Assembly (NCBI GenBank): GCA_029570205.1 | Contig: JAKQSI010000053.1 | Location: 1 to 64,000 of the forward strand | Direction: 5' to 3' | Length of the DNA stretch: 64,000 bases | DNA from: Candidatus Omnitrophota bacterium | GTDB taxonomy: Bacteria; Hinthialibacterota; Hinthialibacteria; Hinthialibacterales; JAKPRU01 | In this document: positions 44,845-58,845 of the stretch, piece by piece | How positions within the stretch are numbered: the stretch's first letter is position 1 | Layout of the letters: each line of letters begins with the position of its first letter | Position numbers and translations under genes: made by a program | Notes under the pieces: generated by a model | Told to the model about the DNA's origin: nothing | Database searches by the model: none | The model's input: only the letters and a program-made list of their open reading frames with translations

Positions 44845-46968
44845 TCAAATGGTCAAGGATTCAAGGAAGGGGGTGGCAGATTTCTTCTCGGATGCTGCGG
44901 AAGTCAGAATATCCAGTTGATATAATTCCAGGCGGTTCATCACCAAACCGATGATTTTGCCGCCGGAGGAATGAATGCGACGCACGGCCATTTGAATTTC
45001 GCGCGATGTGGATTGTCCGCTGCCGGATATGAACAGGCTGACATCCGTCATGCTGCCGAGCAGCGCCGAATCGGCGGCAATCAATCCGGCCGGAGCATCC
45101 ACAAGAATCCGGTTGAATTCCTTTTCCAACTCCGACAGAAGCTCCCGCATTTTCGGCGATCCGATCAGCTCCACGGGGTCGCAGGTCACCCGGCCTGCCG
45201 GAAGGATTGTCACACCGAGGATATCCACGCGCTTTAATGCGTCCTGGATGGGAAGAGAACCCGTAAGCAGATCGCACAATCCCGGAACAAGATCTTTTTC
45301 AAACAGGGAATGAATCTGGGGTGAGCGCAGGTTGCCGTCTACCAGCGCCACGCGATGCCCTTGCTGGGCCAGAACGGATGCCAGGTTGACGGCGACAGTT
45401 GTTTTACCTTCCCCCGGTCGTGCGCTGCAGAGAGAGACTTTTCGAATCCCCTGCCGTTCGAGCGCCAGGTCCAGAAATCTCCCTAACGACCGGAATGCTT
45501 CCGCCGTGGGAGAATGGGGCAAGTCCTGGGTTATCCGGCTGACTGAAAGCGGACGGGGTATTTTGAAGACCGGGATCGCGGAGACTGTCGGCAACCCGGA
45601 AGCCCGTGATGCCTCATCGGGACTCCGCACCTTGCGGTCATGGAATTCGAGGAGGCACGCCAAAGCAATGCCGCCGCACAAGCCGCAGACCAGCGAAATC
45701 AGAAGCATAAACTGGGGCGAATGCCTTTGCGGTGTTGCGGACGCTTGCGCCCATGAATGCACCCGAACTTCCTTGATCCGGACAGGATGGTCGTTTTCCC
45801 CGGAGGCTTTCTCCCGATTGATTCGTTCCGACAACGCCTCTCGTTCGGAGCGCATTTGCTCCAATTCGTCCTCCAGCGAAACGATGGTTGAATAGCGCTG
45901 GTTGTCTTTTTCCAATTGTCCTGCCAACTGCGTGTGTTGGTCTTCCAGCGCGGTCAGTTCACGACGCGCCTGCTGTTGTCGCGCCTTCGCCCGTTCGATG
46001 ATTCGGTTTTCCTCATTGCGGATTTCGGTTTCGAGTGCGTCACGTTGACGCTGGAGCGTGATGTAAGTCGGGTGACGCCTCCGATAGCGTTTCGAGACCT
46101 CTTGCCATTTCGCGTCGATTTCCTTCCATTGTTCTCGAAACCGGTCGAGGTTCTCGGACCGGAGGATTTCCCGATTGACTGTGCCGTCCGCCCGAAACAG
46201 GCTGTTGTAGTTCATTTCGGATTCAACCGCTTCCGCTTCGGCAGTTCGCAACCGATCCACGAGCTCGGTTTGTCGGACGACCGTATCGGAGATGCTTTGC
46301 ACAATCTCCGCGACGCTTCGGCCTTCTTTGAGAGTCTCAATTCTCTCTTTAATCTCCCGAATCCCTGTGTCGATCTTCGCAAAGGTTTCTCGGTCTTCCG
46401 CCGGGAGGGAAACCGTAAAACCGGCCCCCGCTGCGATTTCCTCCGCGATCGCATTGGCAAACGACGCCGAAATAATCGAGTCCGGAGAGGTAAACTCCAC
46501 ATAGACCAAATCTTCTTTTTCAGCGTCTCCCCGCACAGCCACCTGGCATAAGAATGCGCATGTGACCCGACGTTGAACCGCAGGGGGCAGACTCTCCAGG
46601 GTTCGACTGCCGGAGGCCGTCGAGATTCCTGACCGTGACAACATCCATCTTTTCGGTCGGTTGAGCACGTCCATTTTCCGGACGATTCTTCCCGGAAAAT
46701 CGTCCTGACTGATACATCGTTTCAGTTCATCCGCGAGGGCATTCGAATCGGGTGGAGTTTGTCCGTCCGTTGTGGCAATCGTTTCAACGTGTAGACAGGC
46801 CGTGGCGCGGTGGGATGTTTGATGCAGGCGATGTGTTACAAATACCGAAGCGGCTGCGGCAGCGGTCACCCCCAGAACAACCCCCCGATGCCGATACAAG
46901 AGGGAAACGGCGGAACGCAGGCGGCCGATAAACTGTTTGAGGGCGGAACGCGATTTCATACGCCTCAC
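44845..46968 (-). CDS. Wzc-like polysaccharide co-polymerase / BY-kinase-type protein
   Basis: A 707-residue inner-membrane protein of the chain-length regulator plus P-loop kinase type. Helix 1 is near residues 29-46, a long periplasmic coiled-coil region (about 200-400) follows, and helix 2 is near 425-443. The cytoplasmic part has Walker A SARPGEGKTTVAVNLA near 515, an A'-like VALVDGNLRSP (usual DADLR altered), and a Walker B-like ILVDAPAG. The C-terminus (TSAASEKKSATPFLESLTI) lacks the usual Tyr cluster. GTG at 46968 overlaps the stop of the Wza-like gene (GTGA); an ATG three codons on is an alternative. Confidence 0.88.
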   Translation of the reverse strand: MRRMKSRSALKQFIGRLRSAVSLLYRHRGVVLGVTAAAAASVFVTHRLHQTSHRATACLHVETIATTDGQTPPDSNALADELKRCISQDDFPGRIVRKMDVLNRPKRWMLSRSGISTASGSRTLESLPPAVQRRVTCAFLCQVAVRGDAEKEDLVYVEFTSPDSIISASFANAIAEEIAAGAGFTVSLPAEDRETFAKIDTGIREIKERIETLKEGRSVAEIVQSISDTVVRQTELVDRLRTAEAEAVESEMNYNSLFRADGTVNREILRSENLDRFREQWKEIDAKWQEVSKRYRRRHPTYITLQRQRDALETEIRNEENRIIERAKARQQQARRELTALEDQHTQLAGQLEKDNQRYSTIVSLEDELEQMRSEREALSERINREKASGENDHPVRIKEVRVHSWAQASATPQRHSPQFMLLISLVCGLCGGIALACLLEFHDRKVRSPDEASRASGLPTVSAIPVFKIPRPLSVSRITQDLPHSPTAEAFRSLGRFLDLALERQGIRKVSLCSARPGEGKTTVAVNLASVLAQQGHRVALVDGNLRSPQIHSLFEKDLVPGLCDLLTGSLPIQDALKRVDILGVTILPAGRVTCDPVELIGSPKMRELLSELEKEFNRILVDAPAGLIAADSALLGSMTDVSLFISGSGQSTSREIQMAVRRIHSSGGKIIGLVMNRLELYQLDILTSAASEKKSATPFLESLTI

Positions 46969-48062
46969 CCGGATTCAGATGCTTTGTTTCGAACGAGAAT
47001 AACATCTCCCTCTTGAACGGATATATCCTCTGCCGTCGCGGATTGAATTGTGGCGAGCGGGTACTGCATCGTCCGGAGCGGGCTGGGACGGATCAGTTTC
47101 AACATTTCTTCGTTACGGTTCTCTTTGAATGCGATCGACGGAAGAATCTGTTTCAGGGTCAGATCGTCTTCCCACTGTCGAACCCCCGGCTCGACCACGT
47201 TCCCGCCCACATAGTACAAACCTTTTCCCAGCACAGTCACACAGTCCCCATCCTGCAAATCCAGGTCTTTGGCCCGCAGGTTGTTTCGAATTGCAGCCGG
47301 ATCGACCAGGATTTCATCGGTTCCTTCGCGTCTCACAACAATCCATCCGGTCAATTCGTTTTCCTTCAGACCCGCCTCGGCCAGGAAATCGAACAGCGTA
47401 ATGCGTACAATCCTGGCTACATCCACCGGCTCCTTGACCGCGCCGGTGAGCCTGATCCGTCCGGCTTCAGGGACAATAATCTCATCGCCGGGACGCAACA
47501 TGAAATTGAGCATCTTGCCCGCAAGTCCCTTGGAAAAAAGCAGGTGACGGTCAATCCGAACTTCTCTGGGACGTTTCCGTCCGCGAAGAATGATCTCCGA
47601 GGCCGCGCGGTCTTCCAGAATCCCGCCTTGATGTTCAAGGGCATCTCGAATCCGCATTTTCTCCTGTAACGGTGTTGCCCCCGGCTGCCCCACAGCTCCC
47701 TGAACCTCCACGACATATCCCGGGCGCTCTTTGATTTTCACACTCGCACGGGGAGTCCAGAGGTATTCCTCATCGACCAGGCGTTTCTCAATATGTCGGG
47801 CCAGCTCCGTCGGAGTTTTCCCTGCGGCCTCCACCTTCTGCAACAGCGGAAATTGGAAAGTTCCGTCACGGCCCACTTCGCGAGTCATGGTCAGCATGGG
47901 TTCGTCCTGAACTTCGATTTCGAGAATATCTCCCACGTCGATCACAAACTCATCTGCGGCCCAGACATAACCGCTGAAATTCAATGAGACAGGGATGAAA
48001 AAAACGACCAGGATGGGCAGAATCTTCCTGAGGAGGTCAACAATGGAGGCAGTTGTATTCAT
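46965..48062 (-). CDS. Wza-like polysaccharide export protein (SLBB domains)
   Basis: A 365-residue exported protein of the polysaccharide export family. The signal region ends near VWAADEF; the Poly_export domain starts DEFVIDVGDILEIEV and runs through RVGRDGTFQFPLL-type strands to about residue 120. Two SLBB-type repeats follow: VVEVQGAVGQPG and IRLTGAVKEPVDV, with a third-like YYVGGNVVEPGVRQW. Such proteins form the outer-membrane channel for capsule or exopolysaccharide. The ATG at 48062 has GGAGCGA upstream. No lipobox was found, unlike many Wza proteins. It is coupled to the Wzc-like gene. Confidence 0.88.
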   Translation of the reverse strand: MNTTASIVDLLRKILPILVVFFIPVSLNFSGYVWAADEFVIDVGDILEIEVQDEPMLTMTREVGRDGTFQFPLLQKVEAAGKTPTELARHIEKRLVDEEYLWTPRASVKIKERPGYVVEVQGAVGQPGATPLQEKMRIRDALEHQGGILEDRAASEIILRGRKRPREVRIDRHLLFSKGLAGKMLNFMLRPGDEIIVPEAGRIRLTGAVKEPVDVARIVRITLFDFLAEAGLKENELTGWIVVRREGTDEILVDPAAIRNNLRAKDLDLQDGDCVTVLGKGLYYVGGNVVEPGVRQWEDDLTLKQILPSIAFKENRNEEMLKLIRPSPLRTMQYPLATIQSATAEDISVQEGDVILVRNKASESG

Positions 48063-48389
48063 TCGCTCCGTGCTTTCCCGAAGATTCAAGACCGGCGCCG
48101 AATACCGTCCGGCGGACTACCCGGCGCCGATCTGCAATCAGTTCATAGTGACTTGGGCACGGCATCCCATGCCCGATGCTCTCCCGCGTGCTTGTGCCGA
48201 TCAGGCCGCTCCACCCTCGGCTTGCCCCCAGCCGGCAGAGTAGCCGGACGGCAGGGGAACATTCGCCTCTATTCTATGTTCCCGCATCCGGATTTCGCAA
48301 TAGATATGCCAATCGCGGCTTGGCGCTCTTCCCAGAACGTCCACAGTGAGGCATCCTGTGCCGGAACTTGTTACAGGGGCGGAGCTCAC

Positions 48390-50276
48390 ATGAAATCCTT
48401 CCTTCGAAAACTCTTCCGAAATCCGATCCTCATGGATTACGGAATGCTTGTGGTTCTCCTTGTGGTCAGCCTCTTTCTCAGCTGGGCCACCTATCGAGAG
48501 GGGGAGGCCATCACGGGAGTGGAAGGGGGCAGAAGTCTGGCCGAGAGCGCAGCCGGTCGGTTCCCCGGCGGTGTCTTCATCGTCATTTCCTCTAACACCG
48601 GCGCCGATTCTTCCGCATTGCCCGATTCGGAGTCGGTCCTGAAAACCTTGAACGATCTTCACTGCACCGTGGCGGCTGTCATTCCCGCCGCGGATTCGCT
48701 TCCGGCCTTTCGACGGGAGGTCCGCGAGGCGTATCGAAATCAAGCAAAAATAGACGGGATTATTCTGGTCGATTCGTCGAAGGAGCGTTGGCTGCGGTCT
48801 GCCCTGCGCGGTCTCGAAACCGAACGGGAACCTGCCGTGATTCTTCCGGTTCGTCGTAAGGAATCCGTTTTCCTGAAACAAGAGAACCTGGTCAACATTG
48901 TCCGCCAGGCATCTGTCATTGCCATCATTGCTGCCGGAATGACGATGGTCATTATCACAGGTGGGATCGACCTGTCCGTGGGGTCTCTGGTGGCGTTCTC
49001 CGGTGTGGTGACGGCGCTTTGCCTGAAACAGGCGGGCGGTGTTCCGCTTGTCGGATTGATTGCGCTGATTTTTCTTTTCGGTGGAATGGGAGGATTCAGC
49101 CTTGGAATGGTATTCGGAAGAAGACGATGGGGGCTGCTTGCCGGGGTCGCAATATCCATATTTCTTGCTTTTCTTTCAGGAACATCTGCGCAAAATCATG
49201 TCCTTGGGATCAGACCGGTTCTGCCGGCCACGGTTCAGGCCGTGAAAGATGCCGCGCAAAGTCAGGCCGGTGGTTTGTATCTGTTTTATGATGGGGCCAA
49301 GCCGGGTGCGCAGGAGTTTATTGAAAAACTCAAGCAGACGCTCGCCACACAGACTCAAATCCCCGTTCTGGGCGAACGATGTGTTCTCGCAACCGAATCC
49401 GTCTCCGTTGAAGAGGCCGCCAAAGAGGCCGCCGAAGAAATCCTCGGTTCCCAGCCCGACTTGAAAATCCTGTTCGGCATGGATCGGGACATTCATTCCG
49501 GTCTGAATCGCGCCATTGATGCGGTCGGCGCAACCGAGCGCCTCGTCGCGGTTCGTGCCGTAACCGATAAAACCGGGCTTGTTTTATTTGCCGTGGTTGT
49601 GGGGATTCTGGTGGGCTGCCTGGGCGGGGCCATGTCCGGTGTCGTGATTACAGGCTTCGGGATACCGCCGTTCATCGCGACCCTGGCGATGATGCTGGTC
49701 GCGCGCGGGATCTCACGATATCTATGCAGTGGCGTGCCGATCTGGGATCTTCCGGAGGAATTTGAGTTCATCGGGAACGGGTATCTGTTCCAGGAGGCGC
49801 TGGGAAACAAGATGCCTGTGCCGGTGGCCGTTATGATTCTCGTTTTTCTGGTGGGGCATTTTGTTTTGTCCGACACACGTTTTGGAAGGTATCTTTATGC
49901 CGTGGGTGGAAATGAAGAAGCGACCCGGTTGTCGGGTATTCAGGTCAATGCGGTTAAGTTCTTTGCGTATGTCATTACGGGCGGGCTGTCTGCGGTTGCC
50001 GGGATTATCATGGCCGCGCGGCTGCAATGCGGTCATCCTGAAACGGGAGCGCTGTATGAATTGTATGTCATCGCGGCGTGCGTGGTCGGCGGAACCAGCC
50101 TCATGGGAGGACAGGGCAAGATCCTCGGCTCGCTGATCGGGGCGCTCTTGATCTGGGTGATCTTCAACGGATTGAATCTTCTTTATGTGGACAGCTATTT
50201 ACAGCAGGCCATTCTTGGATTAGTGATTTTCGTGGCCGTTTTGTTGGACCAGGCCAAGAAGCGTTTTTCAGGCTGA
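48390..50276 (+). CDS. RbsC-like sugar ABC permease with two binding-protein-like insertions
   Basis: A 628-residue permease, about twice the usual 320. The RbsC core is clear: helix 1 (17-33), ENLVNIVRQASVIAIIAAGM plus the signature TGGIDLSVGS (190-199), then FGIPPFIATLAMMLVARG (423-440), GGNEEATRLSGIQVN (506-520) and ending in LGLVIFVAVLLDQAKKR. Two extra blocks interrupt it. Residues about 40-160 hold GGVFIVISSNTG and AKIDGIILVDSS, like the N-lobe of a sugar-binding protein. Residues about 265-395 hold GGLYLFYDGAKPG and AEEILGSQPDLKILFGMDRD, like the C-lobe. GGGGCGGAG lies upstream of the ATG; a 79-residue extension is not supported. No ATPase gene is adjacent. Confidence 0.85.
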   Translation: MKSFLRKLFRNPILMDYGMLVVLLVVSLFLSWATYREGEAITGVEGGRSLAESAAGRFPGGVFIVISSNTGADSSALPDSESVLKTLNDLHCTVAAVIPAADSLPAFRREVREAYRNQAKIDGIILVDSSKERWLRSALRGLETEREPAVILPVRRKESVFLKQENLVNIVRQASVIAIIAAGMTMVIITGGIDLSVGSLVAFSGVVTALCLKQAGGVPLVGLIALIFLFGGMGGFSLGMVFGRRRWGLLAGVAISIFLAFLSGTSAQNHVLGIRPVLPATVQAVKDAAQSQAGGLYLFYDGAKPGAQEFIEKLKQTLATQTQIPVLGERCVLATESVSVEEAAKEAAEEILGSQPDLKILFGMDRDIHSGLNRAIDAVGATERLVAVRAVTDKTGLVLFAVVVGILVGCLGGAMSGVVITGFGIPPFIATLAMMLVARGISRYLCSGVPIWDLPEEFEFIGNGYLFQEALGNKMPVPVAVMILVFLVGHFVLSDTRFGRYLYAVGGNEEATRLSGIQVNAVKFFAYVITGGLSAVAGIIMAARLQCGHPETGALYELYVIAACVVGGTSLMGGQGKILGSLIGALLIWVIFNGLNLLYVDSYLQQAILGLVIFVAVLLDQAKKRFSG

Positions 50277-50436: not shown

Positions 50437-51588
50437 ATGAGAGAAATCACGGTCAATCTCCACGAACGCAGCTACAAGATTCTTGTTGAAAAAGGCACGC
50501 TTCAACGGGTTGGACGACGTGCCGAGCGGTTGGGACTGCACTCGCCCATCGCGGTGATTACCGATCCCACGGTGCAGAATCTCTATGGGGACGTGATCTG
50601 CACAATGCTTCGGAACCAGGGATACCAGTTCGGCCTGCTCTGCATCCCCGGTGGGGAAGCCTGTAAGAATCTCGATACGGTGCGGGTGTTGTACGATCAA
50701 ATCATTGACCTTGGTGTCGAACGTCAGGGCGGTATTGTCGCTCTCGGCGGAGGGCTGGTGGGCGATGTCGCGGGATTTGTGGCTGCAACCTACCTGCGCG
50801 GAATTCGTTTCATCCAGGTGCCGACCACTCTCCTGGCCCAGGTCGATGCCAGTGTGGGTGGAAAAACCGGCGTGGATCACCCCAAGGGGAAAAACCTCAT
50901 TGGTGCGTTTCATCAGCCCAGCCTGGTTTTAATCGACCCCTCCACGCTCAAGACCCTTCCCACGCGGGAACTCCTCTGCGGCCTGGCGGAAATCATCAAG
51001 CATGGAATCATCGGCGATCCCAAAATCTTCGCGTTTGTTCAAAAGAACCTGCGCGAACTGCTTTCGGTTGACGAGGAAACCTACGCGGACCTGGTCGCAC
51101 GGAACTGCCGGTTTAAAGCGAAAGTGGTGGAACAAGATGAAAAGGAAGGCGGGTTACGCGCCATCCTGAACTTTGGGCACACCATCGGACATGCGATTGA
51201 ATGTCTCACCGGCTACACTCGGTATCTTCATGGGGAAGCAGTTGCCATCGGGATGCTGGTCGAGACTCTTATCGGCGTTCGGATGGGAATCTCTTCGGAA
51301 GAGCTGTTTGAAGAGATTTTTGCCGTGATCCGTGATGCGGGATACCCGCTTGATCTACCCGATGTTTCTGCGGAGCAAATCGTCGAAGCCATGCGACGCG
51401 ACAAGAAAGTTGTGCAGGGGACCATCCGTATGGTCATTCCCAAACGTCTCGGACAGATCGAGGTCCGCGAAATCAAAGAGGAGCGACGGATCCTGGAATC
51501 CTGGAAAGACTTGCAGAGTCGGCTGCGAACAATCGGAACTTCCGACAAGATGGATGCCCCAACCCGCAATGTGGGGGCCACAACCTGA
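50437..51588 (+). CDS. aroB: 3-dehydroquinate synthase
   Basis: A 383-residue AroB-type enzyme that cyclises DAHP to 3-dehydroquinate in the shikimate pathway using NAD+ and a metal. Hallmarks are VALGGGLVGDVAGFVAATYL, the VPTTLLAQVDASVGGKTGVDH motif, GLAEIIKHGII, and metal-site His residues in LNFGHTIGHAIE and LHGEAVAIGM. The Arg and Lys in RDKKVVQGTIRMVI are also seen. The C-terminus is about 25 residues longer than usual. Its position in a polysaccharide neighbourhood may be incidental, although aroB homologues also make cyclitols in some pathways. Confidence 0.92.
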   Translation: MREITVNLHERSYKILVEKGTLQRVGRRAERLGLHSPIAVITDPTVQNLYGDVICTMLRNQGYQFGLLCIPGGEACKNLDTVRVLYDQIIDLGVERQGGIVALGGGLVGDVAGFVAATYLRGIRFIQVPTTLLAQVDASVGGKTGVDHPKGKNLIGAFHQPSLVLIDPSTLKTLPTRELLCGLAEIIKHGIIGDPKIFAFVQKNLRELLSVDEETYADLVARNCRFKAKVVEQDEKEGGLRAILNFGHTIGHAIECLTGYTRYLHGEAVAIGMLVETLIGVRMGISSEELFEEIFAVIRDAGYPLDLPDVSAEQIVEAMRRDKKVVQGTIRMVIPKRLGQIEVREIKEERRILESWKDLQSRLRTIGTSDKMDAPTRNVGATT

Positions 51589-52908: not shown

Positions 52909-54051
52909 ATGAAAACACACACGCTTGTCCTGGTTACGCTGTTCCTGTCCATCGGGACAACTGTTTTTGCTCAGGGTCAGGCTTCCGACCAAGGATTTGT
53001 ACCGTTATTCAACGGGACAGACCTGAGCGGCTGGCAGCTCGCGGGCGGAGAGAAAATGTCGTTCTCCGTGCGGGATGGCGCGATCTATTGCGACGGGACT
53101 GCGAACTATCCGCACTGGCTTCGGACGGAACGCATGTATGAGAACTTTGTTCTTCGTTTCGAATTCAAAGTTCCCGGCTGGTGTGAGAACGGCCTGTATA
53201 TCCATGCTCCCCTGTTCGGGCGTTGTTCGAATGTGGGACTCGAATTTCAGATCAGTCATGATGTCGGCACCAGTGTGAAATCCACCGGCGCGATTTTCCC
53301 CGTTGTTCCTCCCATGGTGGCGGCCGCCAAAGACAAGAACCAATGGAACTCGGCGGAGATTATGATGAATTGGCCGATCTACCAAGCCACTCTGAACGGC
53401 CAGGTCATTCAAAATGTCAACCTGGAAGAACACCCGGATCTCCAATATCGACCGCGTTCGGGATATATCGGCCTTCAGGACAACGGGTGGGAAACCGGAT
53501 TCCGCAATCTGTCCATCCGGGAATTGCCGGGGCAGGAGCAGTGGATTTACCCGCTGAACGGCAAGGACCTGGATGGATGGGAACTGCTCGGAAGACACTC
53601 GCCGAATGGGGGCGGGCAATGGCGCATGGAAGATGGCGCGCTGGTTGCATCCAACGGGGATGGTCACCTGGTGAACAACCTGGACTTCAAGGATCTTGAG
53701 ATTCAGCTGTATGTCCGCACGGAGGACATCGCGAACGGCGGAGTCTTCTTCCGCTGGAAGGATGAAAAAGATCGGGGGTATGAGATTCAGATCTTCGATA
53801 ACCCCGATTCCAATCACCAGACCGGCAGCCTTTATGGAATTGCGCGCGCCAGCCACATGCCGGTCCGGTGCGGAGAATGGTATCCCTTGCAGATCATTGT
53901 CAAAGGACCGCGCTGCATTGTCCGGTTGAATGGGGAGACCGTGGTCGATTACGACAAACTCGAGACGATCCGACCGGGGCATATCGCTCTGCAAATGCAC
54001 AAGGAGAATTCAACGATCCGGTTCCGCGATCTCCGCGTGAAGAGGTTATGA
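52909..54051 (+). CDS. Secreted protein with two DUF1080 domains
   Basis: A 380-residue exported protein. The signal peptide ends at VFAQGQ. Two DUF1080 (3-keto-disaccharide hydrolase-type) units follow: residues about 30-205 from FVPLFNGTDLSGWQL to GYIGLQDNGWETGFRNLSI, and residues about 213-378 from IYPLNGKDLDGWELLG to GHIALQMHKENSTIRFRDLRV. The family is a concanavalin-like beta sandwich seen in carbohydrate-degrading loci. The paired organisation is notable. It starts 11 bp after the glycosyltransferase gene and ends convergent with the Wzy-like gene. Confidence 0.9.
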   Translation: MKTHTLVLVTLFLSIGTTVFAQGQASDQGFVPLFNGTDLSGWQLAGGEKMSFSVRDGAIYCDGTANYPHWLRTERMYENFVLRFEFKVPGWCENGLYIHAPLFGRCSNVGLEFQISHDVGTSVKSTGAIFPVVPPMVAAAKDKNQWNSAEIMMNWPIYQATLNGQVIQNVNLEEHPDLQYRPRSGYIGLQDNGWETGFRNLSIRELPGQEQWIYPLNGKDLDGWELLGRHSPNGGGQWRMEDGALVASNGDGHLVNNLDFKDLEIQLYVRTEDIANGGVFFRWKDEKDRGYEIQIFDNPDSNHQTGSLYGIARASHMPVRCGEWYPLQIIVKGPRCIVRLNGETVVDYDKLETIRPGHIALQMHKENSTIRFRDLRVKRL

Positions 54052-54142: not shown

Positions 54143-55555
54143 TCAGCGCCCCATTAGTGCACCTGTGCCCAAATTCGCCGTGCCTTTCCTGTTATGAGTC
54201 ACAATCTTGCCTGCAATATGATTCCGAACTTCCACAGGCAGCGCCCCTTCCGCCCTCCGGGCGTGATAAAGCGTCGCATAGGTGATGCCAAGAAATGCCC
54301 AGAAATAGAAACCGAAAATCCTCTCTTGGAAAAGACAATGAACCACATTGGCGATGAACCCCAGAAAACAGCCTAGAAGCAATGAGTCCCAGGGTTCGCC
54401 GTGCCGAATCCGAGTCGCGGCCTGGAGATGCCGATACACGGTGATCAGCAGAAACGCGGTCGCAAATAAACCGGCCAGGCCCGTTTCCGCCCCGAAACGA
54501 AGGTAAAAATTGTGGGGCGTGTGAGATCGGCTCAGAAGATCCTGAAGGATCGGGTCACCCATATACGGGGCATATTCGTGGTAATACGAGGAATAGTTTC
54601 CCAGTCCGACCCCGTTGAACGGATGAGCCAAAATCATCCTCAGTCCCACTTGCATCAGGTACTTTCGGCTGTTGATGGAAGAACGGACAGTCTGCTCTCC
54701 CGGAACGGCCGGATGCGTCAATCCTTCAAGCGTTGAGATACGTTGCTGGGCGAACGGGGAAAACAAAAGCGCCTGATAGAAAACAAATGCCAGCGTCCCC
54801 ACAGCAATCAGCGCCCGTATCTTCTGCCTCATCGGGAACCGCAGCAGCATCACTGAAGCGGTCGCAAAAAGCGAAACCCATGTCCCGCGTGTGCCGGCAA
54901 ACACAATGGCAATCAGAAGAACCGGCAATAAGGCCATCACCCAACCGCTCCAAGCGAAACGCTTCCTGCTGAAAAACAAAATACACACGCAGATACAAAT
55001 GATCGGCTCAAAATAAAAACCGATTTCATTGGAGGATAACCATGTGATATCCCAAATCTCGGCAGAACGAGGCGCAAAACCTGCCCGGGATGCGCGAATC
55101 ACCATCAGAATGGCACAAATCCCCGCGTTGAGCGCGTTGCCGATCAGGAAACTCTTATACACGTTGGAAGCAAGCAGGGCATTCACCACAATATAGAAAA
55201 AAAGAAAATAACAGCACCAGCCCGCAAGAAACTTCAGCCCCTGCATGGGGTAGGTCGTATCGAGCAAAGATAGAAGACCGGCAATAAGAAAGAATGCACA
55301 AGCAGAGAATAACGGGATCTGCTTAATTGGCGGTTGAGAGGAGGTCAATGACTTGCCCACATAAGCGAACCCGACCAGCAAAAACGCACAAAGAAATCCA
55401 TAAGGAATCTTGGATGTGTACACGTCCTCGAGTGTGCGCGTTCCGAAAAATCGATTCGTAAAAAACGCAATAAACGGAAACGCAAACCACAACCAGGACG
55501 GTCGAGAAAGACCGACCAGCAGTAGCGGAATCCCTGCGAGAAATAGAATCTCCAT
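54143..55555 (-). CDS. O-antigen ligase/polymerase family protein (Wzy/WaaL-like)
   Basis: A 470-residue membrane protein with about 11-12 predicted helices. It carries the Wzy_C-type motif region near residues 305-365: FNGVGLGNYSSYYHEYAP, then RSHTPHNFYLRFGAETGLAGL, with the conserved His. An earlier Arg pair in FAGTRGTWVSLF is typical. Such enzymes polymerise lipid-linked repeat units or transfer glycans. No flippase is visible nearby, so Wzx must be elsewhere. Confidence 0.87.
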   Translation of the reverse strand: MEILFLAGIPLLLVGLSRPSWLWFAFPFIAFFTNRFFGTRTLEDVYTSKIPYGFLCAFLLVGFAYVGKSLTSSQPPIKQIPLFSACAFFLIAGLLSLLDTTYPMQGLKFLAGWCCYFLFFYIVVNALLASNVYKSFLIGNALNAGICAILMVIRASRAGFAPRSAEIWDITWLSSNEIGFYFEPIICICVCILFFSRKRFAWSGWVMALLPVLLIAIVFAGTRGTWVSLFATASVMLLRFPMRQKIRALIAVGTLAFVFYQALLFSPFAQQRISTLEGLTHPAVPGEQTVRSSINSRKYLMQVGLRMILAHPFNGVGLGNYSSYYHEYAPYMGDPILQDLLSRSHTPHNFYLRFGAETGLAGLFATAFLLITVYRHLQAATRIRHGEPWDSLLLGCFLGFIANVVHCLFQERIFGFYFWAFLGITYATLYHARRAEGALPVEVRNHIAGKIVTHNRKGTANLGTGALMGR

Positions 55556-55653: not shown

Positions 55654-58600
55654 TTATCCCCCCGTCCAGGAGTTGTACACAGGGTGCGCAAACGAAGTGT
55701 CGTTTAGAACACGGAAGGTTTTCTTCAGCTGCATCGGATTCAAATCCCAGACTTGTACCCAGAACGCATTGTTGGCGCGGGCGTATCCCGTTGCGATCAA
55801 TTCGTCATCCCCGTCCAGGTCCGCATCCATGGCAAAGTACTCGCTCAAAGATGGATCCTCGAATGCCGGGTCGTTCAACAGTACGATACTGCCGCCCAGT
55901 TTTACTCGATTCGCCAAATCCCACCGTTGAACCCAAATCCGGCCACGAGCCTCATTGGTAATCCCGATCGCCAGTAGTTCTTTTTTACCGTCACCGTCGC
56001 CGTCCGCCAAAACAAATCGATTCCCCTCAGGATAAGCGAATTCCGCGCTGTCAAGGAGCTTCAATCCTCCGTATTTCAGGACTCCGCTGTTCGGATTCCA
56101 GACCTGGACCCAGGTCCGCTTGACCGTTTCATTGGTCACACCGATGGCAACCAATTCGTCATTCGGGTCGGAATCAACATTCCCGGCCAGAAACTGGTTC
56201 AAAAGCGGCAATGAGAACTCCGCGGAGCTCAGGATACGGAAAGAGAATTTCTGGAAATGATTCAGTGGATTTCTCACTTGGCAGTACGTCCGGGGCGGGG
56301 TCTCGTTGGTTACTCCGACACTAAGCAATTCATCTGTCCCATCCGCATTCACATCCGCCACCATATTGTGATGCCATGCCGGATTCGTATAGTCGAAAGC
56401 GGAATCGAACAGCAACCGGATGGTTTTCAACCGAATGCCTGTCTCCGGCTCCCAAGTCTGGAGGTAGTTTCGCCAGGATACCCCCCCCAGCGTCGCCACT
56501 CCGGTAACCAGCAATTCCATGTCGCCGTCATTATCGACATCGGCAGGCATGCACTCGGTCCACTGGGGAGACTGATATGCCGGGTCTTCCAGAACACGGA
56601 AACTCGGACGGATCTTTGTGCCGGTCATCAGATCCCGAACGGAAATCCAGGTTTTCACGGTCCCCTCTTCTGTGATATCCGCTGTCACCAATTCGTGTGT
56701 CCCGTCGCCGTCGAAATCCATTGTCAAAAATCGATCCCATTGTGGATAGGCATACTCGGCATAAAGATATCCGTCTATCAGTTTTCCCCCGCCGAGCCGC
56801 AGCCCGGTCAACGGATTGAAGACCTGCGACCACACTTGGGGATTTGTATGGTTGGTAAATCCGATGGCGACAAAATTGCCCGGATTGGCAATAATCCGCC
56901 GCGGAGATCGAAAAATTCGGAATTTCGCTGAGGCTGTGCCCGTCGATAAGCCCGCGTTCTGGGCCAGAAAGACCGATTGAAAATCACCCACCTGCGTCGC
57001 CGAGGGAACCCAGCTGAAAACTCCCTGGTCGGCAAACGACAGGAAGGAACTCCCTGCCGGACCCGACAGCAAACTCAACGTGACCGACGGCCACCCGGGA
57101 TCCGTCGCGTTGACAGTCAGATTGATCCGATTCTCCACTCGGCCTCCAATGGCCGTTGTCGGGCTTACCGGCTTCCCGCCGTATGAAATTGTGATCACCG
57201 GTGGAGGAACCGGGGTGGAAACCGGGGGCAATGTCGGCGTCACCGTCGGAGTGGGTGTATCTGCCGGTGTACTTGTGGGCGTATTAGTCGGCGTCACCGT
57301 CGGCGTATCTGTCGGAATATCTGTCGGCGTGTTTGTCGGCGTGTCCGTCGGAATTTCCGTCGGGGTATCCGTTGGCGTATAGGTTGGCGTATAGGTTGGC
57401 GTATTTGTCGGAATATCTGTCGGCGTATTTGTCGGCGTGTCCGTCGGAATTTCCGTCGGGGTATCCGTTGGCGTATAGGTTGGCGTATTTGTCGGAATAT
57501 CTGTCGGCGTGTTTGTCGGCGTGTCCGTCGGAATTTCCGTCGGGGTATCCGTTGGCGTATAGGTTGGCGTATCCGTCGGAATATCTGTCGGCGTGTTTGT
57601 CGGCGTGTTTGTCGGCGTGTCCGTCGGAATTTCCGTCGGGGTATCCGTTGGCGTATAGGTCGGCGTGTTTGTCGGCGTGTCCGTCGGAATTTCCGTCGGG
57701 GTATCCGTTGGCGTATAGGTTGGCGTATTTGTCGGCGTATAGGTCGGGCTGGGCGTGTCGGTTGGAGTCGGCCCCACAACAATCACTTGGCTCACACTCA
57801 TTACCCGGTTGTTGTTTTCATTCCATTCTGTCACAGATTGCCCGGAGTCCAGGAACACGTACAGATAGTATGTTCCGGGAGTTCCCGGCACGTTTACAGT
57901 CAGGCTGACATTGCGGGAGCTGCCGCCGAGCATGAGAGATGCCCTGTCAGTCGGCGAAAGCGCCAAATCATCCCCGTTTCCGATATTCTGATCCGAGGAT
58001 AAGTACACGGTACTTGTGTGTAGATCGGCAATCTTCTGGAAAAACGATCCCAGCCCGTCATTGTACTCGACATAAGTCACATCGAGTGTTCCGCCCCCGG
58101 CCGGAAGCAAAAGCGAACTCGTGATGATCGGACCGGAGGTCAGCGTCAGATCCGGCCCCGTGGTCCCCAGCGTCGGAGTCGGCGTCACGGTGAAAGTCGG
58201 AGTGACGGTCGGCGTTGCAGTTGGCGGACTTGTCGGGGTATATGTCCGGGTTGCCGTGGGAGTCCGTGTGGGTGTATTGGTGGGCGTAAATGTCCGGGTT
58301 GATGTCGGAGTCCACGTCCGCGTTGGAGTCCGTGTTGCCGTGTTCGTCGGCGTTGGAGTTGGATCGGAGACCGTTATAGGCTGCGAAGTCCGAATGTACC
58401 TGTTGTTGCTTTCATTGGTCTCCGAGACATCACCATCGGCATCGATCACAACCACCAGATAATAAGTCCCGGCAGGGACTGCGAAACTGACCGTTGTGGT
58501 CACCTTCTGGTTGCTCCGTCCCGGAATGCCGGAAGAAACGTAGCAAGGAAAAACCTCTATATCATTGCCGATTTGCGTGTCGGATGAAAGATAATGACGG

Positions 58601-58800
58601 TTTGTATGACCTCCGGCGGAGGTACCCTGCGCATTCCGAACCGTATAAGTGAAATCGAGAGTGGCTCCCTCGCTTGAAACACTCCTTGAAGAGGTAATAG
58701 AGGGATTGCTGTTGAATCGCAAATCCGGCTGAGCCTCCACTGAGGAAATCCAAGTCCCAATCAGGACCACAAAAAGAGCTCGTGCGAGCCAACGGTACAT
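55654..58800 (-). CDS. Secreted CARDB / Thr-Pro-linker / FG-GAP protein
   Basis: A 1048-residue exported protein. The signal peptide (MYRWLARALFVVLIGTW...) ends near SSVEA. Two CARDB-type domains follow (residues about 22-145 and 215-345, each ending near ESNNRYI/ENNNRVM). They are joined by Thr-Pro linkers of 4-residue repeats; the second runs from about 347 to 530. A cadherin-like segment comes next, then about six 70-residue FG-GAP-type units (FDGDGTHELVTADI, DVDNDGDMELLVTGV, DGDGDGKKELLAIGI). It is a probable surface or matrix protein. ATG at 58800 gives the signal peptide. It is divergent from the PglC-CapD-like gene. Confidence 0.82.
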   Translation of the reverse strand: MYRWLARALFVVLIGTWISSVEAQPDLRFNSNPSITSSRSVSSEGATLDFTYTVRNAQGTSAGGHTNRHYLSSDTQIGNDIEVFPCYVSSGIPGRSNQKVTTTVSFAVPAGTYYLVVVIDADGDVSETNESNNRYIRTSQPITVSDPTPTPTNTATRTPTRTWTPTSTRTFTPTNTPTRTPTATRTYTPTSPPTATPTVTPTFTVTPTPTLGTTGPDLTLTSGPIITSSLLLPAGGGTLDVTYVEYNDGLGSFFQKIADLHTSTVYLSSDQNIGNGDDLALSPTDRASLMLGGSSRNVSLTVNVPGTPGTYYLYVFLDSGQSVTEWNENNNRVMSVSQVIVVGPTPTDTPSPTYTPTNTPTYTPTDTPTEIPTDTPTNTPTYTPTDTPTEIPTDTPTNTPTNTPTDIPTDTPTYTPTDTPTEIPTDTPTNTPTDIPTNTPTYTPTDTPTEIPTDTPTNTPTDIPTNTPTYTPTYTPTDTPTEIPTDTPTNTPTDIPTDTPTVTPTNTPTSTPADTPTPTVTPTLPPVSTPVPPPVITISYGGKPVSPTTAIGGRVENRINLTVNATDPGWPSVTLSLLSGPAGSSFLSFADQGVFSWVPSATQVGDFQSVFLAQNAGLSTGTASAKFRIFRSPRRIIANPGNFVAIGFTNHTNPQVWSQVFNPLTGLRLGGGKLIDGYLYAEYAYPQWDRFLTMDFDGDGTHELVTADITEEGTVKTWISVRDLMTGTKIRPSFRVLEDPAYQSPQWTECMPADVDNDGDMELLVTGVATLGGVSWRNYLQTWEPETGIRLKTIRLLFDSAFDYTNPAWHHNMVADVNADGTDELLSVGVTNETPPRTYCQVRNPLNHFQKFSFRILSSAEFSLPLLNQFLAGNVDSDPNDELVAIGVTNETVKRTWVQVWNPNSGVLKYGGLKLLDSAEFAYPEGNRFVLADGDGDGKKELLAIGITNEARGRIWVQRWDLANRVKLGGSIVLLNDPAFEDPSLSEYFAMDADLDGDDELIATGYARANNAFWVQVWDLNPMQLKKTFRVLNDTSFAHPVYNSWTGG
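57230..57770. repeat. 12-bp minisatellite encoding Thr-Pro linker
   Basis: In the second linker of the CARDB protein the DNA repeats in 12-bp steps (codons for TPTN, TPTD, TPTE, IPTD). These group into longer blocks of about 60-100 bp, for example strings containing GTCCGTCGGAATTTCCGTCG recurring near 57343, 57439, 57523, 57619 and 57679. The near-identity at DNA level suggests recent expansion, and length may vary between strains. Confidence 0.85.
58170..58366. repeat. Short second Thr-Pro repeat
   Basis: The first linker of the same gene is also 12-bp based (TPTPTxTATRTPTRT) but more diverged than the 57230-57770 block, which suggests it is older. Confidence 0.6.
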
Positions 58801-58845
58801 GGAAATCGTTCCCAACTTCTTCGCTTCTGCGGCGATGACCTTCAT

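Follow-up and report, generated by a model that had tools for sequence, protein, structure and literature searches.

An RbsC-type permease with two predicted periplasmic insertions related to the C-lobe of RbsB-type binding proteins

Can a sugar permease carry the substrate receptor of its own transport system within its polypeptide chain? This question is raised by P0001, a permease of 628 aa that is encoded in the window (the whole 64-kb stretch of DNA that was analysed), as the first-pass annotation had interpreted two insertions in this protein as the N-lobe and the C-lobe of an RbsB-type binding protein, split and held in the channel, and had regarded the absence of an adjacent ATPase or binding-protein gene as fitting with a self-contained system.

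Architecture and topology of the permease

The gene begins with an ATG at position 48390, and a GGAG motif is found 5 bases upstream. The features are the following (coordinates are those of the window):

48381..48384, plus strand: Shine-Dalgarno-like GGAG (direct sequence reading)
48390..50276, plus strand, including the stop codon: RbsC-type (CUT2, BPD_transp_2) permease P0001, 628 aa, with two insertions that are predicted to be periplasmic (Pfam, NCBIfam, intact orthologs in G008 and G009)
48426..48494, plus strand: TM1, about residues 13-35 (hydropathy, positive-inside count)
48498..48875, plus strand: insert 1, residues 37-162, in the predicted periplasmic loop between TM1 and TM2; resembles the C-lobe half of an RbsB-type binding protein (hhalign; PF13407 matches in relatives; predicted helix/strand alternation)
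48882..49031, plus strand: TM2-TM3 with the GGIDLSVG signature, about residues 165-214
49041..49190, plus strand: extra transmembrane hairpin, about residues 218-267; its predicted cytoplasmic turn contains GRRRWG, and it would bear insert 2 to the periplasm
49191..49574, plus strand: insert 2, residues 268-395, located ahead of TM4; the second domain that resembles the C-lobe half of an RbsB-type binding protein (hhalign P 1.7e-8; PF13407 match of the G001 homologue)
49575..50273, plus strand: conserved permease core, TM4 to C-terminus, residues 396-628

P0001 shares the motifs GGIDLSVG, PPFIATL and GGNEEAxRLSGI with the RbsC/CUT2 permeases (PF02653, TC 3.A.1.2). Pfam and NCBIfam assign residues 393-623 to BPD_transp_2 and RbsC, respectively, with 138 bits for PF02653 (cutoff 26.8), and the RbsC model (ribose permease) is the best of NCBIfam, its score of 254 being below the equivalog cutoff of 398. 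Relative to the ordinary RbsC of E. coli (321 aa), there are three additions, namely insert 1, the extra transmembrane hairpin and insert 2, and thus two predicted periplasmic domains of about 125 aa each plus a hairpin that the first-pass annotation had not listed. The length of the permease, its RbsC signature and the two inserted blocks had been read correctly, as the frame, the family matches and the orthologs bear out. These orthologs have the same length, share 96% and 91% identity with P0001 and come from two further species of the genus (G008 and G009), whose genomes were deposited as ‘Candidatus Omnitrophota’ MAGs. Three species of one genus therefore have the architecture with both inserts in intact form, and P0001 is not an assembly fusion. 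The phylum was sampled here with 14 genomes. In comparison with the G009 ortholog, insert 2 has a dN/dS of 0.05 and comes close to the core (0.035), whereas insert 1 is at 0.21. Purifying selection thus acts on both inserts, and insert 1 is the less constrained one.

A search of PDB sequences revealed no related solved permease, and the topology was derived from hydropathy and charge. With four K/R and no acidic residue, the N-terminus MKSFLRKLFRNP is most likely cytoplasmic, and TM1 would consequently exit to the periplasmic side, where insert 1 would be located. The extra hairpin would then lead into the cytoplasm and out again, which places insert 2 on the periplasmic side as well. The positive charge of P0001 resides in the N-terminus, in the hairpin turn GRRRWG, in the GRYLYAVGGNEEATRLSG loop and in the C-terminal KKRF. 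Both inserts are thus predicted to face the periplasm, i.e. the outer side that the first-pass annotation had assumed for them.

Kinship of the inserted domains

To which proteins are the inserts related? In profile-profile comparisons (hhalign) with a profile of 43 binding proteins, both aligned on the C-lobe, the insert-1 family with a score of 40.9 (P 1.2e-5) and insert 2 with a score of 57.2 (P 1.7e-8). When the lobes were separated, the C-lobe profile scored 40.9 with insert 1 and 56.4 with insert 2, as compared to 18.4 and 11.9 for the N-lobe profile. The latter values fall inside the range of shuffled columns, for which the best of 150 shuffles reached 19-22, and reversed-profile controls resulted in P values of at least 0.038. 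As the N-lobe and C-lobe profiles of the binding proteins also match each other (score 30.8), the assignment of the inserts to a lobe depends on this specificity and not on the fold.

P0001's own inserts have no binding-protein match in Pfam, PF13407 (Peripla_BP_4) included, and when joined they match a ribose binding protein among the PDB sequences weakly (E 0.42). In relatives, PF13407 is found directly: insert 2 of the homologue from G001, a genome of the same class and another family, matches it with 1.8e-6 at profile positions 107-213, which is the C-lobe, and 4 of 19 insert-1 domains of other phyla do so as well, the best with 2.1e-7 at positions 105-193. Among 24,736 Pfam families, PF13407 is the best one for this insert-1 domain as well as for the G001 insert 2, and the runner-up for the insert-1 domain is another periplasmic binding protein family (0.005); the bit scores of the PF13407 matches in relatives (31.2 and 28.1) lie under the curated cutoff of 35.1. 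A Pfam family that is dedicated to the inserted domain was not found. Structure predictions were of low confidence, with an AlphaFold2 pLDDT of 35 for full-length P0001 and of 48 for insert 1 alone (the alignment consisted of three near-identical rows), and a Foldseek search of the PDB with the insert-1 model gave no meaningful match. The secondary structure in these models alternates between helices and strands as expected for a binding-protein lobe, and the fold of the inserts is thus deduced from sequence profiles and predicted secondary structure.

Judged by these profiles, both inserts are relatives of the C-lobe of RbsB-type binding proteins and neither is a relative of the N-lobe. The relationship to RbsB that the first-pass annotation had recognized is thereby borne out, but its distribution of an N-lobe to one insert and of a C-lobe to the other has to be replaced by two C-lobes, as the profile-profile and the Pfam matches lie on the C-lobe only. 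An origin of insert 2 by internal duplication of insert 1 was considered but not supported, with 202 of 1000 shuffles scoring as high in Smith-Waterman alignments and a profile P of about 0.002.

Despite their C-lobe matches, the inserts differ from RbsB-type binding proteins in several respects: an N-lobe and a hinge are absent by the N-lobe profile scores, the domains are set between transmembrane helices, and the sugar contacts are lost. In insert 2 of P0001, the RbsB contacts R141, N190 and D215 are replaced by E, D and V, respectively (hhalign with RbsB as reference; D215 was placed by hand beyond the aligned block), and N190 is exchanged by D in the G001 insert 2 as well. The C-lobe contacts of RbsB thus appear not to be conserved, a mapping that is specific for ribose, as other ligands use other residues. 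While the kinship part of the split-binding-protein idea stands, these differences make a two-lobe cleft less likely. Within the insert-1 family, conservation peaks beside the membrane, in EQHPTG after TM1 and in WPxFL before TM2.

Distribution of the inserts and possible partners

An independent occurrence of the two inserts had been named in the first-pass annotation as evidence against its reading, and it was observed: insert 1 is present without insert 2 in no fewer than 23 permeases of at least three other phyla. The family lists of the centre genomes G286, G309 and G038 do not overlap among the families listed, and these genomes therefore appear to represent three separate phyla. To calculate a maximum-likelihood tree, we used the part of the permease core that follows insert 2 and is free of insert sequence. 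In this tree, all 23 insert-1-only and all 4 double-insert permeases fall into one clade (97/94), and their clustering is far above that of shuffled labels. Insert 1 was therefore probably acquired once. Within the clade, the double-insert branch (93/73) is separate and lies beside the insert-1-only branch (100/97). As for insert 2, it either arose in this lineage, or it arose earlier and was lost in the insert-1-only branch, and the tree fits both scenarios.

In the sampled genomes, insert 2 was seen only in this genus and in the family of the same class to which G001 belongs. The G001 gene carries both inserts and is interrupted within the hairpin region by a frameshift (C1, around 1140354-1141439), which is due to a sequencing error or marks a pseudogene. 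In three other phyla, of which 132, 80 and 392 genomes were searched, no further double-insert permeases were found; this sampling was partial, with few candidates per genome and no positive control there. A named insert-1 permease was not among the eight best plasmid matches, and two weak insert-1 matches (L026 and L027) were judged from their translations to be due to chance. An extra TM3-TM4 hairpin without insert 2 was observed in two other RbsC permeases (L004 on C119 and L122 in G333) in different parts of the tree; the hairpin was thus dismissed as a marker of the insert-2 lineage.

A binding-protein gene adjoins the permease gene at 17 of the 23 insert-1-only loci, and an RbsA-type ATPase gene does so at 15, with short flanks at two of these loci (L169 and L170), where only RbsA is visible. 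Insert 1 therefore generally accompanies a binding protein and does not replace it. Neither gene is in view beside any of the double-insert permeases, and a BLAST comparison with reference binding proteins and RbsAs detected none in the whole window. The absence noted in the first-pass annotation is therefore real, but it does not argue for a self-contained system, as the genome scatters such genes. Three of its seven RbsC genes and four binding-protein genes stand alone, with unlinked permeases on C1 and C114, binding proteins on C105, C109, C42 and C48, and an RbsA on C16. The latter is the one of three RbsA-type genes in the genome that has neither permease nor binding-protein neighbours, and an orphan ATPase of the kind that the first-pass annotation proposed to look for thus exists; the ATPase gene on C42 sits at a contig end. 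The missing neighbours of P0001 are consequently uninformative, and the orphan RbsA on C16 and the four unlinked binding-protein genes could be its partners in trans.

Several other genes were noted on the way. In the window, the permease gene is flanked by genes for Poly_export/SLBB, Wzc-like AAA and O-antigen ligase (Wzy_C) proteins (44845-48089 and 54143-55555, both minus strand), and AroB (50437-51588) and a 3-keto-disaccharide hydrolase (52909-54051) are encoded between these polysaccharide export and ligase genes. At 55654-58845 on the minus strand, there is a 1063-aa frame in which PTPT/TPTxTPTD repeat linkers separate CARDB-like and FG-GAP-like parts (assigned by eye). In G000, an 851-aa frame comprises a complete RbsA-type double ATPase and an RbsC-type permease (C20, 175.8-178.3 kb, minus strand; L058, 3289-5841) and is followed by a second RbsC gene, and a 1256-aa frame near an ABC ATPase has two partial, N-lobe-like Peripla_BP_4 matches at profile positions of about 14-121 and 19-121 (L068; C28, 18180-19415). 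Frames similar to the latter are present in G006, G008 and G009.

Possible roles of the half-lobes

Which function may such half-lobes have? In importers such as GlnPQ and OpuA, the membrane domain is linked to complete two-lobed binding domains (PMC8025302, PMC11065425). P0001 resembles these systems in that binding-protein material is covalently joined to the permease on the predicted outer side, but it differs from them because its RbsC-type chain is interrupted by half-lobes and a complete domain is absent. Another comparison is offered by the maltose system, for which contacts of MalE with the periplasmic P2 domain of MalF are cited in PMC3150292. Like MalF P2, the inserts of P0001 are large domains that are placed between transmembrane helices, and MalF works with MalE as a separate binding protein. 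MalF belongs to CUT1, a permease family that is different from CUT2. To our knowledge, MalF P2 has not been described as being derived from a binding-protein lobe.

Although the double-insert loci lack an adjacent binding-protein gene, we lean on balance towards the view that the degenerate half-lobes, as parts of the permease, provide a separate binding protein with a dock or gate, similar to MalF P2 in role, and that they do not constitute a self-contained receptor. It is unlikely that they are instead a structural or regulatory relic, i.e. the decayed remains of an ancestral fusion of binding protein and permease that now stabilise the permease or plug or regulate the channel without binding a sugar or a binding protein. 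Such a decay would explain the lost contact residues, the evolution of insert 1 at a faster rate than the core, and its variability between phyla with a conservation that is focused near the membrane, but the inserts are under purifying selection, which is strong in case of insert 2, and they have been retained in one clade over several phyla.

It is improbable that P0001 is a self-contained receptor in which insert 1 and insert 2, or copies of them across a dimer, form a ligand cleft from two C-lobes, making a separate binding protein dispensable. The co-occurrence of both inserts in two divergent lineages (the own genus and G001), the almost core-like constraint on insert 2, the lack of an adjacent binding-protein gene at all double-insert loci and the presence of an unlinked RbsA would agree with this idea, but it would have to work with neither N-lobe nor hinge and with lost RbsB contacts, insert 1 alone is found beside an ordinary binding-protein gene in many genomes, and unlinking of genes is usual in this genome. 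A pseudo-symmetric cleft between both C-lobe-like inserts, either by themselves or across a dimer, would give the permease its own receptor made from two copies of one half; this appears quite improbable. Unrelated Rossmann-like domains that resemble binding-protein lobes in fold only are very improbable. Alpha/beta domains of such type are indeed common, the two lobe profiles weakly match each other, and designed Rossmann-like proteins and flavodoxins lead the PDB profile search (E 0.0045-0.03), but PF13407 is ahead of the next Pfam family, another binding-protein family, by four orders of magnitude for the insert-1 domain and is matched on the C-lobe segment, and the shuffle controls are far lower than the real scores.

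In the view that we favour, P0001 is a member of a CUT2 subfamily that has a degenerate RbsB-type C-lobe in the predicted periplasmic TM1-TM2 loop, and in this lineage a second C-lobe-like domain is located on an extra membrane hairpin ahead of TM4. Provided that the permease dimerizes like RbsC, four half-lobes would ring the periplasmic mouth. They most likely do not trap a sugar. A diffusible binding protein supplied in trans would instead dock onto them as a tethered platform or gate, and the half-lobes would couple this docking to the channel. Transport would be powered by an RbsA-type ATPase that is encoded elsewhere in the genome.

In a limited search of the open-access literature, we found no description of permeases with such inserts. 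Insert 1 appears to mark a previously unnoticed permease family that still has an ordinary binding protein, and insert 2 appears to be a rarer addition. Binding-protein material would thus have entered the loops of sugar permeases in the form of half-lobes, with insert 1 probably arriving once in a broad family that covers at least four phyla including that of the window, and with a second half-lobe in this lineage. These permeases may therefore offer a natural test for the contribution of the individual binding-protein lobes at the permease, be it docking, gating or ligand capture.
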